Made by a program: the position numbers and the translations under genes
Notes under the pieces: model-generated
What the model saw: only the letters and a program-made list of their open reading frames with translations
What the model was told of the DNA's origin: nothing
Databases searched by the model: none
NCBI GenBank assembly: GCA_029258325.1
Contig: JARHZF010000100.1
Location: 62,001-126,000 of the forward strand
Length of the DNA: 64,000 nt
Source of the DNA: Anaerobiospirillum sp.
GTDB lineage: Bacteria; Pseudomonadota; Gammaproteobacteria; Enterobacterales; Succinivibrionaceae
Direction: 5' to 3'
Shown: piece by piece, positions 39,633 through 51,875 of the stretch
How positions within the stretch are numbered: the first letter of the stretch is position 1
Layout: each line of letters opens with the position of its first letter

Positions 39633-40619
39633 GTGTCAGTATGTGAACTGCTAAAACCAAAACCAGTAGGATTTACTGAAATAGGTCCTAACTCAGCTAA
39701 AATTGTGCTAGAACCATTAGAGCGTGGTTTTGGTAACACCTTAGGTGTAGCGTTAAGCGGTATTTTACTAAAGACCCTTCCAGGTTATGCAGTAGATGCA
39801 TTCCATATCGATGGAGTTGTTGACACAAATAGCATGAAGGATGACATAGAGGAATCTATTATTGAAGTTATAATGAATTTAAAAGCTCTAGCTATAAATT
39901 CAGACTCTAGTCATACTTCACCTGTTTGGTTATCAATTGAAAAAAGTGGAGAAGGTTTAGTAACCGCTGCGGACATTGACTGTCCTCCACATATTACAAT
40001 TATTGATCCAACAGCTCGCATCTGCACCCTTAAGGGTGCCAAGGCTTCGTTGTCAATGAAACTTCGAGTTGTTGCTGGACGTGGATATATTCCTGCAAGT
40101 TCAGAGGAACATATTCCACCAAGAGAGAATGAGATCTTAATTGATGCTGCATTCTGTCCAGTACGAAGATTTGTCTATGAGGTTGAATCTGCTCGTGTTG
40201 AGCAAAGAACAGATTTAGATCGTCTTGTAATTGAGATTGAAACTAATGGTGTAATCCAGCCAGATGAGGCTCTAATGCAGGGTGCTCAATTAATATCTCA
40301 ACAAGTTGATGTATTGGTAGATAAAGAAGATGTTTCAGAGTTTACTGTAACTCCTGCAGCACCTCCATTACCAGATCCAACTTTATTACAACCAGTTGAT
40401 GATCTTGAGTTAACTGTTCGCTCAGCAAATTGCTTAAAGGCTGAACAAGTTCAATATATAGGCGACTTAGTACAACGTACTGAAGTTGAGTTGTTAAAGA
40501 CACCAAATCTTGGTAAGAAGTCATTAACTGAAATTAAAGACGTTCTTGCTCAAAGAGGATTATCTTTAGGTATGCGTATTGCAAATTGGCCACCGCCACA
40601 TTTACGTACACCTAGATAA
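39633..40619 (+). CDS. rpoA: RNA polymerase alpha subunit, copy 1 (beta-prime-side type)
   Basis: A 328-residue alpha subunit in the usual alpha-operon place between rpsD and rplQ; GTG start. The C-terminal domain keeps the DNA/activator surface ([29 protein letters not shown]). In the N-terminal domain the near-universal Arg44-Arg45 pair of E. coli is replaced by Ser42-Gly43 (codons 39756-39761, AGC GGT), and the region matching E. coli 60-76 ([17 protein letters not shown]) has diverged to [18 protein letters not shown]. The segment matching E. coli 189-199 is fully kept ([13 protein letters not shown]). Published E. coli mapping assigns the first region to beta contact and the second to beta-prime contact, so this copy probably fills the beta-prime-side position. 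Confidence 0.93.
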
Positions 40620-41115: not shown

Positions 41116-42105
41116 TTGGATCAACTAACCGATTTTCAAACACCAAATATCAAAGAAGTAATACCTCTAGGTCAAAATTCATCAAGAGTTATTTTAGAGC
41201 CTTTTAATCAACATTATGCTCAAGTACTAGGAACTGCATTACGTAGAATTTTATTATCTTCAATTCCTGGCTATGCTGTAACTCAAGTTGAAATTGATGG
41301 TGCTGTTCATGAGTATTGTGCTATTGAAGGTGTTCAAGAAGATATTCTTTTAATTTTAATGAACATCAAAGAAATAGCTGTATATTCTGAATCATATCAA
41401 CAACATGAAGTTGTTCTAGAAATAAATAAAACTGGTGTAGGTCCTGTTGTAGCAGGTGACATTATATGCCCTTCTGGTATAGAAATTAAGAATCCTGACT
41501 TAGTTTTATGCCATGTAACTGATCCAAAGATTACTTTTAAGGTGCGTCTACATATTACTCGTGGTAGAGGATATGTTCCAGCTTCAAGTAGTGCTTATAT
41601 TGAAGGTGTAAATGATAGATATATTGGTCGTCTACAATTAGATGCTTCTTATTGTCCTATTTTAAATGTAGCTGTAAGAACTGAAGCAATTAACTCTGAA
41701 ACAGAGAGATTAATGCTAGATATTGTTACAAATGGAACAATATCTCCATCAGATGCTGTAAAAAATGCAGCAACAATTTTTGCAGATCAATTAAATTCAT
41801 TTATGGATATAAAGAACTCTGTTGCACCTTCTGATGATTCTGCTTTCAGACCTTTAATTGATCCTAAGTTAATTTGTCCTGTTGAAGATTTAGATCTAAC
41901 TGTTCGTTCAGCAAATTGCTTGAAGACAGAGGGAATTAAATTTATTGGAGACCTAGTTCAAAAGACTGAAGTTGAACTATTAAAGACTCCAAACTTAGGT
42001 AAGAAATCATTAACAGAAATTAAAGATGTTCTTGCAGAAAGAGGTCTAACTCTAGGTATGAGACTTGAGCATTGGCCACCAACTGATTTAGATATATCTA
42101 ATTAA
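41116..42105 (+). CDS. rpoA: RNA polymerase alpha subunit, copy 2 (beta-side type)
   Basis: A second full-length alpha subunit of 329 residues, 84 bp after rplQ. The start is TTG at 41116, seven bases after AGAGGG. The C-terminal domain is intact ([26 protein letters not shown]). The N-terminal domain keeps [15 protein letters not shown] with both arginines and [18 protein letters not shown], the regions mapped to beta contact in E. coli. The block matching E. coli 189-199 ([11 protein letters not shown]) is replaced by [11 protein letters not shown], and PLERGFG by PFNQHYA. The pattern is the reverse of copy 1, so the two probably form a heterodimer with this copy on the beta side. Confidence 0.93.
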
Positions 42106-42113
42106 TTTTTTAT

Positions 42114-42144
42114 AAAAGAGGTCATATAATGTGACCTCTTTTTA
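42114..42144 (+). terminator. Terminator after second rpoA
   Basis: AGAGGTCA (42117-42124) pairs with TGACCTCT (42132-42139) around TATAATG, with an A-run before and TTTTT after. Confidence 0.9.
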
Positions 42145-42161: not shown

Positions 42162-42560
42162 ATGTATACTCCATATGACTTAGAAAATATGAGTGATGAA
42201 GAGTTTGATCAATTATCTGATGAAGTTCTTGATATAATAAAAGAAACAATGACAATTGAAGTTTCAGAAGACTTTATTGAAAGATATAATTTTTTATATG
42301 AACAAGGTAAAGAATTTATAACTTCTTTTGCTAAAGTTGATAAAAATCTTTGGGAAGATTTTTTTCTTTCTATTGATCTAGATGAAGGTCAGACAATAGA
42401 AAATGATTTTATTCAAGCTACTTATTTCGCTTGTATGACTGATGTAAATGAAATAGTTGATTTTAATGATACTAATAATGATTTATTAGCTATTGCATAC
42501 GTGTTAATATGTAAATCAGATAAATCAAAATGTTCAATTATTTATTGTGATATCTCTTAA
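42162..42560 (+). CDS. Small acidic protein of unknown function
   Basis: A 132-residue protein with no family recognised. It is strongly acidic throughout (many Asp/Glu, for example NMSDEEFDQLSDEVLDII near the N-terminus), has no signal peptide or membrane segment, and contains a short hydrophobic C-terminal stretch (LLAIAYVLICK) with two cysteines. A TGAGG site lies 5-9 bases before the ATG. It ends 9 bp before the giant acidic gene, so the two are probably co-transcribed. The pairing suggests a shared role, but no function can be read from the sequence. Confidence 0.75.
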   Translation: MYTPYDLENMSDEEFDQLSDEVLDIIKETMTIEVSEDFIERYNFLYEQGKEFITSFAKVDKNLWEDFFLSIDLDEGQTIENDFIQATYFACMTDVNEIVDFNDTNNDLLAIAYVLICKSDKSKCSIIYCDIS

Positions 42561-42569
42561 GGCATACTT

Positions 42570-45500
42570 ATGATTTTGGAACCTCCTTTTGAATTACCAC
42601 CTTTGTTAGTTAATAAAAGCCAAAAAGGTGTTTATCATGTGTATAGATATAAGAATAAATGGAATTCTGAAAAACAACGCTCCCAAAGAGTAAGTTCTAA
42701 ACTTGTAGGTCATATAACAGGTGGAGCAAAAGAAGGTTTAGTTGAATTTACCGATGATTTTATAAACGAATTTCCTCAACTTAAGGATTATGATGTTTAT
42801 AAAAAAGGTAGAAAATTCTTATTTGATAAAAAAGTCAAAGATGAAGTTTCTATTGATGTAAATATAGATAATATAAAACACTTTGGTGCGTATTACGCTA
42901 TTAAGACCTCTCTTTTAAAAAGTAATATTAATAAGATTTTAAAAGAGAAGTTTGCTAAAGATAATAATTATTTATTTACCATTATTTTCTATCTTATTAT
43001 GTCAAAGGATAGCAATATTGATTTTGCAACTTTTGCAAAAGAAAATTGCCCTATTAATTCTTATGACTTGTCTGATAATTATCTAAACACTCTTCTTGAA
43101 TCTTTACAAGATACAACAATTGAAGATTTCTTCAATTCTCTTGAGGAAAGTCTCTACTCATCTAAAGATGAAACAAAAGAACAAATTCTTCAGGATATGA
43201 TTGATAAAGTTACTAGTCTAGAAATCGATACAAAAGAAATCGATGACTTTATTAATGACAAACAACCTAAAGAACAAAAAGAACAATCAAATGAAGATCA
43301 AGAGGAGAATAAACATCAAGAAGATCTCTTATCACCTGATTTAGTAGATAAAAATATTTCTACTATGGCTGAGATTAAAGATCATATAGATGAAGACAAT
43401 GATCTTGAAGTAAATACTATTTTTCCAAACTTTTCACACAATAGTAATAATAATTCTTCTTCAAATAATGTCATTATGTCAGATGATGTTATTAAAAAAG
43501 AATTATTAAATGAATTTGTGTCTAATGATGATGAATTCTTTTTAACTTCAGATATAGTTTCATCTAATCCAACTACAATAACTAAAGATGAAGTTTTAGC
43601 TATTCAAAAAAATAAAGAGTTAGAAAAACAAAATCTTGATCCTGAAAATAAAGTTTCTTCTTTATATGATGTTAGTTCAGAAATAAATAAATCATCTAAT
43701 GAAAATGATTTATTTGAGATCCCTCCAATGCCTTTAACTAATGATTTAGAAGATATAAATAATAATGTTGATGATATTATGTCTTCTTTATCAAGTGATA
43801 TCGAAGAACATTTATCTTCTGTTGATAATATTGAAGATTTATTGCTAGAGAATAATTCTGAAAGTGATGCTGTTAAACAGCAAAACATCGCTAATAATAA
43901 GTCAGATGATTTATTTACAGCTCAAGAAAATTTAGAAAAAACATCTATTTTAGATGAACAAAAAATAGATAATTCTACTGATTTAAAAATAGATCAGTCT
44001 TTAGATAATATATCTAGTTTAGATGATAAAGATGCTTTATTAAATGAAGAAAAAGATGGTATACATCTATCTTCTTTAACTGATAACTCTGTAGATACAC
44101 CTATAGATGATTTATTTACAGTAAATGATAATGTAAATAATTTATCTATATTAGATGAAGATAAATTAGATGTAGACAAAACAATAAAAGAAGAATACTT
44201 AGTAGAAGAAACTCCATCAAAAGTATTAGCAGATGAACTACTATCATCATTAGAAGCATCACAAGAAGAGGCTAAAGGTAATCTATTAGAACCTACAGAA
44301 GAAGTAGCAGAAGATGTATCTTTAGTTGAGGAAGTTCCAAAAGAAGAATCACTAGATGAACTACTATCAACATTAGATTCAACACAAGAGGAAGCTAAAG
44401 ATAATCTACTAGATGCAGTAGAAGAAGTGGCTCCAATTGAATCTTTAGTAGAAGAATCAGCAAAAGAACCACTATCAGCATTAGAAACAGAAGAAACTGC
44501 AGAAGATCTATTCAAAGCAGAAGAAGTAGCTAAAGATAATGCTGTAGTTGATGAAGCTCCAAAAGAAGATTCAGTAGATGAACTGCTATCAACATTAGAC
44601 TCAACACAAGAAGAGACTAAAGATAATCAATTAGATGCTGTAGAAGAAGTTGCTCCAGTTGAATCTTTAGTAGAAGAATCAGTAAAAGAACCATTATCAT
44701 CATTAGAAACAGAAGAAGCTGCAGAAGATCTATTCAAAGCAGAAGAAGTGGTTGAAGATAATGCTGTAGTTGATGAAACTCCAAAAGATGAGTTAGTAGA
44801 AGAAGTACTACCATCATTAGACTCAACACAAGATGAAGCTAAAGACAATCTATTAGATGCTGTAGAAGAAGTCACTCAAGATGAATATCATATTGAGGAA
44901 ACTCCATCAAAAGTATTAGCAGATGAGCTTTTATCAGCATTAGAAGCATCACAAGAAAGATCTAATGGAGATCTATTAGACACTACAGAGAAAGTATCTC
45001 AAGATGAACATATAGCTACAGATGATTTATTAAATTCAAATGAAGATGAAAAATCTGAAACTGAATCTGCATCAAATATAGCTATTCAAGATATTTCAAT
45101 GGAAGATTCTAATAGTGCAAATACAGATTTATTAGAATCAACAGAAAATGTTGAAAATTCTTCTAAAGAAGATTTACAAAATGAAGATCTTTCTTATTTA
45201 ACTGCAGAAAATGATCTAACTAAAGAAAATACTTTAGTTTCTAACGAAAATGTTTCTTTGGAGAATGATTCATTAAATAATAGTTTATATATAGATACCA
45301 ATGAAGATAATGGTGTTGATTTAATATCTAATCATTTAGATGATGAAATTAAACAAATAAAAGAAACTGAAGAACCTGAAAACTCTTCTATCTTTATTCC
45401 AAAAAATAATGAATCAGATGAAGAAGATCTATCTAATAATATAGAAAAATTATCTAATGATGAACACTCTATCAATATCTTAGGAGTTGATGATGTAAAT

Positions 45501-46499
45501 AGATCATCTTTAGTTATTAATGAGGCTATATCTGAAGTTGAAGATACAAATGCTAATGTACCAAAATTAGATAAGTCAAATGTAAAATACAATATCTATG
45601 AATTTAGAGTTGAACCTAAGAATTTATTAAATATAAATAATAGATATGGTACACGCTCTAGATTATTCTTTGCTATTGCTGTAAATAGAGAAACAAATTC
45701 TATAGATGCAATGCTCTCTTATAAGGGTAGAGATCTTAATAATGTAGTTGAAAAATTTTCAGATATGTTAATGGTATCTAGTGAAAATATTAACTATATT
45801 TTAGATGATGTAAGTACATGGTCTGAAGTTGAAAATCTTTGTAGAAATAGCAAAGTTAACTTTATAGTTCCTATGTATAAATTTAGTAAGGAAGAAATTT
45901 CAAATACAGATTTAATTAACTATCTTGAATCTGATTCTTGTTTTAAAAAGGATATTAATAAAAATGTTTTAACCTTTACTCAAGAGTTAGATAGTTCTAA
46001 TTCTAACTTTATACATAAAGATTTAATCTATTATTATATTTATGATAAAGATTCATATAATACTTATAAAGAACTATTTTCAGATGATGAATCTTTAAGT
46101 ATTGCAAAAGCATCTTATAAGATATTAAGTTCTTATGAGCAAGATTATAAATCTGTCATAAAACTTATAGAAGATAAAGACTTTATGAAAGAATTTGTTA
46201 ATAAATCATTTAATACTCTAAATGATGTTACTGACAATTTAAAAAATCTAAATGCTAAATTCTTTATAATTTACTTAGCTTTATCTCTTATATTATTTAT
46301 GAAAGATAGATTTGTAAGTAATGAATTATTTAATAAGATTAATACTAAAAATAAATCAGACTTTAAGATTCTTTTAGACTCTTTATTATCACTTAACTCT
46401 ATTTATACAAGTGATGTAAATGGTTCAAAACAAATCTTAAATAAGACATCAGTAGATGAACTTATTATAAAGATTTTTGATTTACATATTTTTAAGTAA
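42570..46499 (+). CDS. Giant acidic protein built on a split, probably inactive transposase
   Basis: 1309 residues in three parts. Residues 1-200 resemble the N-terminal region of IS4/IS1634-type transposases: YHVYRYKNKWNSEKQRSQR, KLVGHITGG, then a helical block HFGAYYAIKTSLLKSNI, TIIFYLIMSKDSN, LSDNYLNTLLESL, IEDFFNSLEESL. Residues about 200-1000 are an acidic, low-complexity insert (Asp/Glu/Ser/Asn/Leu) with 74-residue repeats. Residues 1004-1309 resemble the RNase H-like transposase core: VKYNIYEF where active enzymes have a YDxT motif with catalytic Asp, then YG, IAVNRETNSIDAMLSYKG, YILDDVSTWSEVENL, and a hydrophobic FFIIYLALSLILF near the end. The first catalytic Asp appears to be Asn, so transposition activity is doubtful. 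No flanking terminal inverted repeats were found. Confidence 0.7.
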   Translation: MILEPPFELPPLLVNKSQKGVYHVYRYKNKWNSEKQRSQRVSSKLVGHITGGAKEGLVEFTDDFINEFPQLKDYDVYKKGRKFLFDKKVKDEVSIDVNIDNIKHFGAYYAIKTSLLKSNINKILKEKFAKDNNYLFTIIFYLIMSKDSNIDFATFAKENCPINSYDLSDNYLNTLLESLQDTTIEDFFNSLEESLYSSKDETKEQILQDMIDKVTSLEIDTKEIDDFINDKQPKEQKEQSNEDQEENKHQEDLLSPDLVDKNISTMAEIKDHIDEDNDLEVNTIFPNFSHNSNNNSSSNNVIMSDDVIKKELLNEFVSNDDEFFLTSDIVSSNPTTITKDEVLAIQKNKELEKQNLDPENKVSSLYDVSSEINKSSNENDLFEIPPMPLTNDLEDINNNVDDIMSSLSSDIEEHLSSVDNIEDLLLENNSESDAVKQQNIANNKSDDLFTAQENLEKTSILDEQKIDNSTDLKIDQSLDNISSLDDKDALLNEEKDGIHLSSLTDNSVDTPIDDLFTVNDNVNNLSILDEDKLDVDKTIKEEYLVEETPSKVLADELLSSLEASQEEAKGNLLEPTEEVAEDVSLVEEVPKEESLDELLSTLDSTQEEAKDNLLDAVEEVAPIESLVEESAKEPLSALETEETAEDLFKAEEVAKDNAVVDEAPKEDSVDELLSTLDSTQEETKDNQLDAVEEVAPVESLVEESVKEPLSSLETEEAAEDLFKAEEVVEDNAVVDETPKDELVEEVLPSLDSTQDEAKDNLLDAVEEVTQDEYHIEETPSKVLADELLSALEASQERSNGDLLDTTEKVSQDEHIATDDLLNSNEDEKSETESASNIAIQDISMEDSNSANTDLLESTENVENSSKEDLQNEDLSYLTAENDLTKENTLVSNENVSLENDSLNNSLYIDTNEDNGVDLISNHLDDEIKQIKETEEPENSSIFIPKNNESDEEDLSNNIEKLSNDEHSINILGVDDVNRSSLVINEAISEVEDTNANVPKLDKSNVKYNIYEFRVEPKNLLNINNRYGTRSRLFFAIAVNRETNSIDAMLSYKGRDLNNVVEKFSDMLMVSSENINYILDDVSTWSEVENLCRNSKVNFIVPMYKFSKEEISNTDLINYLESDSCFKKDINKNVLTFTQELDSSNSNFIHKDLIYYYIYDKDSYNTYKELFSDDESLSIAKASYKILSSYEQDYKSVIKLIEDKDFMKEFVNKSFNTLNDVTDNLKNLNAKFFIIYLALSLILFMKDRFVSNELFNKINTKNKSDFKILLDSLLSLNSIYTSDVNGSKQILNKTSVDELIIKIFDLHIFK
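44355..44888 (+). repeat. In-frame 222-bp (74-residue) tandem repeats
   Basis: Repeat units begin at 44355, 44577 and 44799, an exact 222-bp period; the third is partial. Each carries DELLSTLDSTQEE, AKDNLLDAVEEV, VEES-KEPLS-LETEE and AEDLFKAEEV in order with few changes. A related outer unit, EETPSKVLADELLS-LEASQE, flanks the array at about 44206 and 44895. Near-identity at DNA level suggests recent expansion or copy-number change. Confidence 0.85.
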
Positions 46500-46521: not shown

Positions 46522-46554
46522 AAAAAAGCATAACTTCTACAGTTATGCTTTTTT
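46522..46554 (+). terminator. Bidirectional terminator between the giant gene and L,D-transpeptidase
   Basis: GCATAACT (46528-46535) pairs with AGTTATGC (46541-46548) around TCTAC, with A-run and T-run on either side. Confidence 0.9.
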
Positions 46555-49951: not shown

Positions 49952-50767
49952 ATGTTTTCTTTGTTTTCACTAAAAAAATATTTAATACTGTGTACCTCTA
50001 TTTTTATTATGACAAATACAGCTTTTAGTTATGATGATACATATATTAGAGATTATTCATATAAGGATGCTTTAAAAGGTGTAACTTTAAAAATAGGAGC
50101 ATCTTCTTTCCCTCCTTTTGTTATAGTAGATGAGGAAAAATATACACATCCATCAGGTCTTGAAATAGATATTTTAAATGAAGTACAAAAAAGATTAGGT
50201 TATACACTTCATAATAATAGATATATTTTTTCTTCTTCTGATTTTCTTTTAAAATCATGTGCATCTGGTGAAACAGATATTATTATTGCTGGATTTTCTT
50301 TAACTAAAGAAAGATTAAAAAACTTTCAATTTTCTCCATCTTTTTATCAATCATCACAAGCTGTGGTAACAAAAGATATAAATAAAGATAAAGTAAAATC
50401 ATTTAAAGATTTAAATAATAAGACTTTATCTGCAGAACTTGGTTTAGATATAGCTTCTTGGTTTAAAGATGAGGGCATATCTGTAAAAGTAAAAGAATAT
50501 GAAACAAACTTTATGTCTTATTATGGTATAGCTAAAGATGAGGCTTTTGCTACTGTTATAGATACTCCAAATGCTTTATATTATATAAAACAATGGCCTC
50601 AATCTAATTTAGCTATAGCTTTTACTACTAATGAAGATAATGAAGAATCAAAAATAGGCTTTCTTTATAAAAAAGATTTTAAATATGCACCATATTTTAA
50701 TCTAGCAATAAATGATATGTTAAAAGATGGAACTATAGATAAAATTATTGATAAATACTTAAAATAA
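49952..50767 (+). CDS. Periplasmic amino-acid-type solute-binding protein (SBP family 3), first of tandem pair
   Basis: A 271-residue exported protein with a signal peptide ending near AFSYDD. Family 3 solute-binding motifs include KIGASSFPPFVI, GLEIDILNEVQKRLG (G-x-DxD-type), and FSLTKERLKNFQFSPS, where the arginine normally binds the ligand carboxylate. A late IDTPNALYY block supplies the aspartate that normally binds the amino group. No ABC permease or ATPase is beside it. It is a paralogue of the next gene, separated by a strong terminator. Ligand unknown; amino acid or a derivative is likely from the binding residues. Confidence 0.87.
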   Translation: MFSLFSLKKYLILCTSIFIMTNTAFSYDDTYIRDYSYKDALKGVTLKIGASSFPPFVIVDEEKYTHPSGLEIDILNEVQKRLGYTLHNNRYIFSSSDFLLKSCASGETDIIIAGFSLTKERLKNFQFSPSFYQSSQAVVTKDINKDKVKSFKDLNNKTLSAELGLDIASWFKDEGISVKVKEYETNFMSYYGIAKDEAFATVIDTPNALYYIKQWPQSNLAIAFTTNEDNEESKIGFLYKKDFKYAPYFNLAINDMLKDGTIDKIIDKYLK

Positions 50768-51041: not shown

Positions 51042-51875
51042 ATGTTAAATTTAACCAAAAAAATTAAGTTAGCTTTTACATTATTTGTTTTTTATCTGAC
51101 ACCAAATCTTGCATTTAGTGATGAATTTAGCTCTGTAGATAATAGTAGCTATACTAATGTAGATTATAAAAATGCACTAAAGGGTGTAGTTTTAAAAATA
51201 GGTGCAGCACCTTTTCCTCCTTTTGTTACTGTAAGTGAAGGTGCATATAAGGATCCTTGTGGTATTGAAATTGAAATATTAAACGAATTACAAAAGAGAT
51301 TAGGATATTCTCTTGATAAAAATAAGTACATTTTTGCACCATCTGATTTTGTTCTTAGTGCAGGTCATAATGGAACTATAGATATTATGTTAGGTGGTTT
51401 ATCCTTAACTAAAGAAAGATTAAAAATATATCCAACATCACCTGCTTATTATCAATCATCACAAGCTATTGTAACTAGAGCATCTGATGCTGATCATATT
51501 AAAAGTTTTGATGATTTAAATGGTAAAACTTTAGCTACAGAAATGGGTATTGATATTAGAAGTTGGCTTGATGGTTCTAATGCTCATGTAAAAATAAAAG
51601 AGTATGCAACTAACTTTATGACTTATTATGCCATATCAAAAGGCGATGCTGATGCTACTATTATTGATACACCAAATGCTCTTTTTTACTCTAATAAATG
51701 GGATTTTGGTAATTTAAAAATAGCATTTATAACTAATGTAGGTAATGAAGATTCTAATGTTGGATTAATTTATAAAAGAGGCTTTAAATATACAAAGTAT
51801 TTTAATGCAGCTCTTAAAGATATGTTAGCAGATGGTACTGTACAAAAAATTATAGATAAATATACCAAAGATTAA
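51042..51875 (+). CDS. Periplasmic amino-acid-type solute-binding protein (SBP family 3), second of tandem pair
   Basis: A 277-residue exported protein with a signal peptide (hydrophobic LAFTLFVFYLTPNLAFSDE). It parallels the previous gene throughout: DYKNALKGVVLKIGAAPFPP, GIEIEILNELQKRLGY, LSLTKERLKIYPTSPAYYQS, IIDTPNALFYSNKW. Ligand-contact arginine and aspartate are kept. Divergence is high enough that the duplication is not recent. No transporter partner is adjacent. It could feed a permease elsewhere or act as a sensor. Confidence 0.87.
   Translation: MLNLTKKIKLAFTLFVFYLTPNLAFSDEFSSVDNSSYTNVDYKNALKGVVLKIGAAPFPPFVTVSEGAYKDPCGIEIEILNELQKRLGYSLDKNKYIFAPSDFVLSAGHNGTIDIMLGGLSLTKERLKIYPTSPAYYQSSQAIVTRASDADHIKSFDDLNGKTLATEMGIDIRSWLDGSNAHVKIKEYATNFMTYYAISKGDADATIIDTPNALFYSNKWDFGNLKIAFITNVGNEDSNVGLIYKRGFKYTKYFNAALKDMLADGTVQKIIDKYTKD

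Follow-up and report, generated by a model that had tools for sequence, protein, structure and literature searches.

A likely exapted IS1634-type transposase with an acidic insert of about 800 residues in a member of the Succinivibrionaceae

The locus and its long open reading frame

The window analyzed here is a stretch of 64,000 nt from the 2.6-Mb draft genome of a gut bacterium of the Succinivibrionaceae (Aeromonadales). On its plus strand, positions 42570 to 46499 contain a transposase-derived open reading frame (ORF) of 1309 codons. The product consists of an IS1634-type N half (residues 1-205, 42570..43184), an acidic low-complexity insert (residues 206-1004, 43185..45581), and a C half that is likely to form an RNase H-fold transposase core with an altered active site (residues 1005-1309, 45582..46496). 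An earlier inspection of the nucleotide sequence, here called the sequence-only reading, had proposed that the outer parts are the halves of one IS1634-type transposase in the right order, separated by a giant acidic insert just before the first catalytic aspartate, and that a dead transposase was retained by selection as a single intact 3.9-kb frame. The results described below agree with these proposals, and the fold is probably kept. A DNA-mimic-like or scaffold role, which the sequence-only reading gave as examples of a new function, would be speculative.

Upstream of the 1309-aa ORF lie rpoA1-rplQ-rpoA2 and a gene for a small acidic protein (42162..42560, plus strand), and downstream lie the convergent ykuD gene and parC. 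The small gene ends 9 bp before the start of the 1309-aa ORF, and the likely ribosome-binding site of the latter, AAGG (42559..42562, plus strand), overlaps the stop codon of the small gene; both probably share one transcript. Terminator-like hairpins were identified 3' of rpoA2 (42114..42142, plus strand) and between the 1309-aa ORF and ykuD (46522..46554, not assigned to a strand). The small protein (120-180 aa, acidic) is encoded after rpoA2 throughout the family and is not specific to the 1309-aa ORF, and a Pfam scan with it retrieved no family above the cut-off. Several genera of the Succinivibrionaceae share the gene order rpoA2 - small gene - ykuD - parC; a profile scan with YkuD yielded syntenic records that include Succinatimonas hippei and Anaerobiospirillum sp. 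NML120449. At L093, the site is empty and the small gene and ykuD are only 2 bp apart; empty sites were also found at other loci.

The 1309 codons are free of stop codons and frameshifts at about 26% GC. Strong codon-position bias is present in all three segments, with GC contents at positions 1/2/3 of.39/.25/.18 in the N half,.51/.25/.08 in the insert, and.29/.23/.13 in the C half. The 798 codons of the insert contain no stop, whereas Markov controls of the same composition stayed open for at most 106 codons. Neutral decay to the observed identity was simulated with the gene of a related insertion sequence (IS) of the sister genome. The N half acquired 10 stops on average (minimum 3) and the C half 21 (minimum 10), and none of 600 runs was free of stops. 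These frame statistics show that the 1309-aa frame is coding, and we infer from them that it is held open by selection.

Two transposase halves and an altered active site

The transposase origin of the N half was shown with a profile built from 11 intact transposases encoded in Succinivibrionaceae genomes; residues 8-205 match profile positions 7-219 with 118 bits (E 3e-37). The intact relatives L004, L005, L011 and L015 score 175-225 bits on the NCBI IS1634 model NF033559 (cut-off 100), and because the profile members pass this model, the assignment to the IS1634 family is correct. The closest intact transposase, with 35% identity, is that of an IS in the sister genome, the second of the two genomes in the genus. 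The N half comprises a basic domain (about residues 1-95, net charge +5) and a following helical region. In IS1634-type transposases, this N domain would be expected to contact the IS ends. The 1309-aa protein itself yielded nothing above the cut-off with Pfam, NCBIfam (including the IS1634 model), PADLOC and PHROGs.

For the C half, HMMER gave a best domain score of 7.2 bits, which was matched by 3 of 1000 shuffled sequences, and hhalign gave a score of 29.8 against the nearest profile, compared with a maximum of 24.1 over 200 shuffles. The profile search for each half, which the sequence-only reading had suggested as a check, was successful for the N half and marginal for the C half. The C half is collinear with the transposase core, as seen from the pairs (window versus transposase) NRETNSIDAMLSYKGR / DQKTGIPLYYRAYNG, ILDD / VMDK, VNFIVP / VSFVAN, NKNVLTF / KQNIFTV, and FFIIYLALSL / IFTQFIATSI.

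Structure prediction, also suggested at the outset, was performed with AlphaFold2 for residues 1005-1309 and alignment A3, and resulted in a predicted local distance difference test score (pLDDT) of 68 and a predicted template modeling score of 0.68. The model was guided by the alignment to transposases and is thus biased towards them. Upon structural re-alignment, the best match was the Tn5 inhibitor 1b7e (Z 13.4 over 248 residues), and Tn5 transposase reached Z values of 12.4-12.6. The top six chains were all Tn5 inhibitor or transposase (Z 11.7-13.4, 220-248 residues), and the next chain had a Z value of 8.9. With Foldseek, endonuclease V and Tn5 transposase were close in rank (E about 1e-3), but the finer aligner separated Tn5. 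A single-sequence AlphaFold model, which is free of the alignment bias, had a pLDDT of 41 and a similar order of strands and helices in its best part; its comparison with the Protein Data Bank (PDB) gave no significant match. Judged from the guided model, the C half is likely to be a Tn5-like RNase H core.

The first core strand contains VKYNIYEF (45582..45605, plus strand) at the place of the first catalytic aspartate; the modeled strand is YNIYEFRV (residues 1007-1014). The sequence-only reading had proposed that this aspartate is replaced by asparagine. The DxT motif is indeed absent, but asparagine is only one option: when N-I-Y-E is paired with Y-A-L-D, E1011 is at least as likely as N1008 to occupy the site. 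MAFFT alone would pair D1001 with the aspartate, a residue that precedes the strand in a region of poor prediction quality. The second aspartate, D1079 within ILDD (45804..45806, plus strand), is retained and the loop following it is changed, both as proposed. In a gap-free alignment, the YREK helix contains D1204, K1207, N1211 and N1218, with N1211 (46200..46202, plus strand) at the place of the catalytic glutamate, so that this glutamate appears to be lost. The alignment from which the losses of DxT and glutamate are read is moderately secure in the C half. Judged from these residues, the 1309-aa protein would be catalytically dead.

The IS of the sister genome is present in three copies that are about 99% identical and have the ends CCCATAAAGTGCG and CGCACTTTATGGG. 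No match to the terminal repeat CCCATAAAGTGCG was found near the 1309-aa gene, and the inverted repeats around the gene are weak AT-rich matches only, confirming that terminal inverted repeats are missing. The gene is present in a single copy and has no close paralogue in its own genome; multiple identical copies with terminal repeats, which would indicate an active element, were not found. Of the features that characterize an IS1634 insertion sequence, the N-terminal region is present in the window gene, and the model match, the DDE triad of two aspartates and a glutamate, and terminal repeats or a target duplication are absent. The own genome also contains an intact IS1634 transposase, L004, with about 31% identity in the N half. 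Beside one IS copy of the sister genome, a degenerate transposase frame (L020, plus strand, 414 codons) matches profile positions 108-338 with 102 bits.

The insert is situated just before the first strand of the RNase H core. Residues 206-1003 contain 28% D+E and 7% K+R and have a net charge of -173. Tandem in-frame repeats with periods of 222 bp (74 aa) and 123 bp (41 aa) were found at 44173..44961 (plus strand), and part of the insert grew through in-frame 74-residue repeats. Repeat copies 1 and 2 differ by 0.098 nonsynonymous substitutions per nonsynonymous site (dN) and 0.217 synonymous substitutions per synonymous site (dS), a ratio of 0.45; for the other pairs, the ratio is about 1. The motif [DE][DEN]L[LF] occurs 13 times, compared with 1.2 expected occurrences, and the repeats account for part of this excess. 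The insert is probably disordered.

Transposase derivatives elsewhere in the family

Nine out of ten Anaerobiospirillum genomes contain one giant transposase derivative each (896-1406 aa). Like the 1309-aa protein, these giants have a dead IS1634 core, an intact N region and large low-complexity inserts, and are encoded by single-copy genes. In four of the nine, glutamine or glutamate takes the place of the first aspartate; in the giants inspected, the regions of the second aspartate and of the glutamate are replaced. The genes mostly adjoin polA, and yhhQ or rho lies in the vicinity. For the pairs compared, dN/dS was 0.08-0.12 in the N part, 0.04-0.16 in the C part, and 0.19-0.27 in the middle; for example, the pair G060/G063 had values of 0.077, 0.036 and 0.19, respectively, and three more pairs were similar. 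Purifying selection on the Anaerobiospirillum giants is clear, and their existence strengthens the proposal that a dead transposase can be retained.

All nine giants form one clade with a support of 100/100. In contrast, the 1309-aa protein groups, on a long branch, with the IS L005, the derivatives L003 and L139a of its own genome, and short proteins (91/87). A common clade of the giants and the 1309-aa protein was not rejected by the approximately unbiased test (p 0.07). The inserts of the giants are located after the first hairpin, before the strand with the second aspartate, and in the spacer between this aspartate and the glutamate, whereas that of the window protein precedes the first strand; the middle parts of the giants are also much less acidic (9-17% D+E). 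Because the inserts are at other places and the tree separates the proteins, the giants are probably a case that is independent of, and parallel to, the 1309-aa protein.

Short proteins of 137-175 aa consist of the N domain only. In a comparison across six genomes their dN was far below dS, and their genes mostly adjoin a transporter gene and a gene for a small secreted protein, with conserved synteny. In further sets of derivatives, the N domain is present two or three times or the inserts are different ones. The N domain is retained in nearly every derivative, and the giants, the short proteins and the proteins with multiple N domains point to this domain as the working part.

Additional transposase-derived ORFs were observed in Anaerobiospirillum (L143-L150, L108, L233-L248). 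They form at least five sets, several of which are conserved between species, and include tandem ORFs (L236) and proteins in which the N domain occurs two or three times (L240, L237). In the genome of the window, two tandem degenerate IS1634-derived ORFs of 579 and 500 aa (L139:1322-4718, contig C147) lie between rplK and nusG-secE in opposite orientation, and the first lacks the second aspartate. A 263-aa protein of the same genome (L141:5471-6262, contig C213, the same gene as L003:1498-2289) is composed of the transposase N domain and a basic tail with the AT-hook-like sequence KRGRKPKN, and has no DDE core.

Interpretation and minor observations

We propose that an IS1634-family transposase became immobilized in the interval between ykuD and the small gene that follows rpoA2, that both its catalytic residues and its terminal repeats were lost, and that it was retained as a host protein. 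The basic N-terminal domain would still bind DNA, and the dead core may provide a body for dimerization or docking. The insert, which is acidic, probably disordered and carries the repeated [DE][DEN]L[LF] motifs, may recruit a partner or tune DNA binding. The protein would thus bind DNA without catalysis and would regulate either related insertion sequences or host genes. As a whole, this reading of an immobilized IS1634 transposase, exapted as a DNA-binding protein that lacks catalysis and interacts through an acidic tail, appears evenly balanced between right and wrong. Its parts differ in strength: exaptation as a general phenomenon in the Succinivibrionaceae is well supported, and exaptation of the 1309-aa gene itself is likely. 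The gene combines an open frame with lost catalysis, as judged from residues, and it is immobile, single-copy and devoid of ends; orthologues at a fixed place were found for the Anaerobiospirillum giants and not for the 1309-aa gene.

Several observations weigh against this proposal. The sequence-only reading had suggested a search for orthologues with conserved synteny beside rpoA and parC. The order of the neighbors is conserved, but no orthologue was present at the syntenic rpoA2/parC loci or elsewhere in the 57 Succinivibrionaceae genomes searched; the gene is lineage-specific. As a consequence, dN/dS based on orthologues is impossible for the 1309-aa gene, and selection on it is read from the frame only. 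The copies of the insert repeats show little constraint on the exact sequence. The homology of the C half to the transposase core is marginal by sequence alone and offers weak support, not proof. A PDB sequence search with the N domain gave chance-level matches only and no solved homologue, and DNA binding by the basic N-terminal domain is putative.

The strongest alternative is that the protein is a dominant-negative inhibitor of related IS1634 elements, which would block transposition by binding IS ends with its N domain or by pairing with an active transposase through the dead core, by analogy with the Tn5 inhibitor Inh. The regulator reading includes this alternative as a special case. The inhibitor 1b7e is the best fold match, the own genome encodes the intact transposase L004, the closest subfamily includes active-looking copies in the sister genome, and the relatives with the N domain only would suit end binding. 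However, the fold match mirrors the shared transposase core and not a function, the intact transposase of the own genome is a distant relative, and the acidic insert would be superfluous for such a role. Inh is the N-terminally truncated product of a live transposon. It shares the Tn5-like core and the inability to transpose with the 1309-aa protein, but the latter has kept its N region, its active site itself is altered, and no transposon surrounds it. We regard the inhibitor as unlikely, albeit worth considering.

Alternatively, the ORF could be an insertion sequence that is decaying into a pseudogene, contains a segment enlarged by repeats and has no host function. Its occurrence in one genome only, the ease with which repeats expand, the loss of the terminal repeats, and the long branch in the tree would fit this explanation. 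It is improbable in view of the uninterrupted frame of 1309 codons at low GC content, the neutral simulations, which for both halves never remained free of stops at the observed identity, the codon-position bias in all segments, and the presence of a likely ribosome-binding site and a terminator.

The acidic stretch might also be a DNA mimic or nucleic-acid antagonist; the transposase halves would serve as its platform, and it would titrate a DNA-binding protein. The high net negative charge of its 798 residues and the scarcity of basic residues are in line with such a role, and it is on charge alone that the idea rests. The DNA mimics known so far fold compactly and have a fixed charge geometry. 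In contrast, the insert is of low complexity, repetitive, and free to vary between repeat copies, so that a compact charge-bearing fold is unlikely, and the middle parts of the Anaerobiospirillum giants are far less acidic. We consider this explanation improbable. A still-active transposase with an unusual inserted domain is hardly credible, as DxT and the catalytic glutamate are missing and the single copy has no IS ends, even though the second aspartate is kept and the transposases of the IS4-related IS1634 family have long spacers between their catalytic residues (PMC2266710).

The 1309-aa protein shares the N-terminal region, the order of the halves and the likely RNase H core with the IS1634 transposases (NF033559), and differs from them by the loss of DxT and glutamate, the 800-residue acidic insert, the missing terminal repeats and the single copy. 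Taken together with the giants and the short proteins, the results suggest that the lineage turned transposases into host proteins. A broader interpretation, which we put forward only tentatively, is that the Succinivibrionaceae did so repeatedly with IS1634 transposases, giving rise to several orthologous sets of dead, often giant derivatives with inserts and to proteins of one to three N domains, that large acidic or low-complexity segments were gained independently at different positions in one fold, and that the N domain is a lineage-specific nucleic-acid-binding module. If true, the products of these repeated exaptations would constitute a new class of bacterial proteins associated with the chromosome or with transcription.

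Eukaryotes offer well-known examples of domesticated DDE transposases. For prokaryotes, a review of exaptation lists transposases mainly as the ancestors of Cas1 and Cas9 (PMC8987985). Like the regulator proposed here, the TldR proteins are bacterial transposon-derived regulators; they are RNA-guided transcription factors derived from TnpB and not from a DDE transposase (PMC13418256). Our literature searches retrieved no description of the Anaerobiospirillum giant set. A bacterial lineage with several conserved non-catalytic proteins derived from DDE transposases would be a tractable system for studying the path from transposase to host protein and for asking why each case involved the addition of acidic or low-complexity segments, and the conserved Anaerobiospirillum set makes the question testable by evolutionary and bench methods.

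Some further observations concern the neighborhood of the gene. A 507-aa ORF in the ykuD/parC gap of the sister genome (L091:3017-4540) was considered as the same gene and ruled out, with 2-3 bits against the transposase profile. It resembles another kind of transposase and would be an unrelated insertion at almost the same place as the 1309-aa ORF. The rplQ gene is flanked by two distinct rpoA genes (39633-40619 and 41116-42105 of the window) that are about 44% identical; most of the family has both genes, but genomes of two genera (g5, g10) yielded only one rpoA. Further downstream in the window, two tandem genes (49952-50767 and 51042-51875) encode similar secreted proteins that resemble solute-binding proteins of amino-acid transporters.

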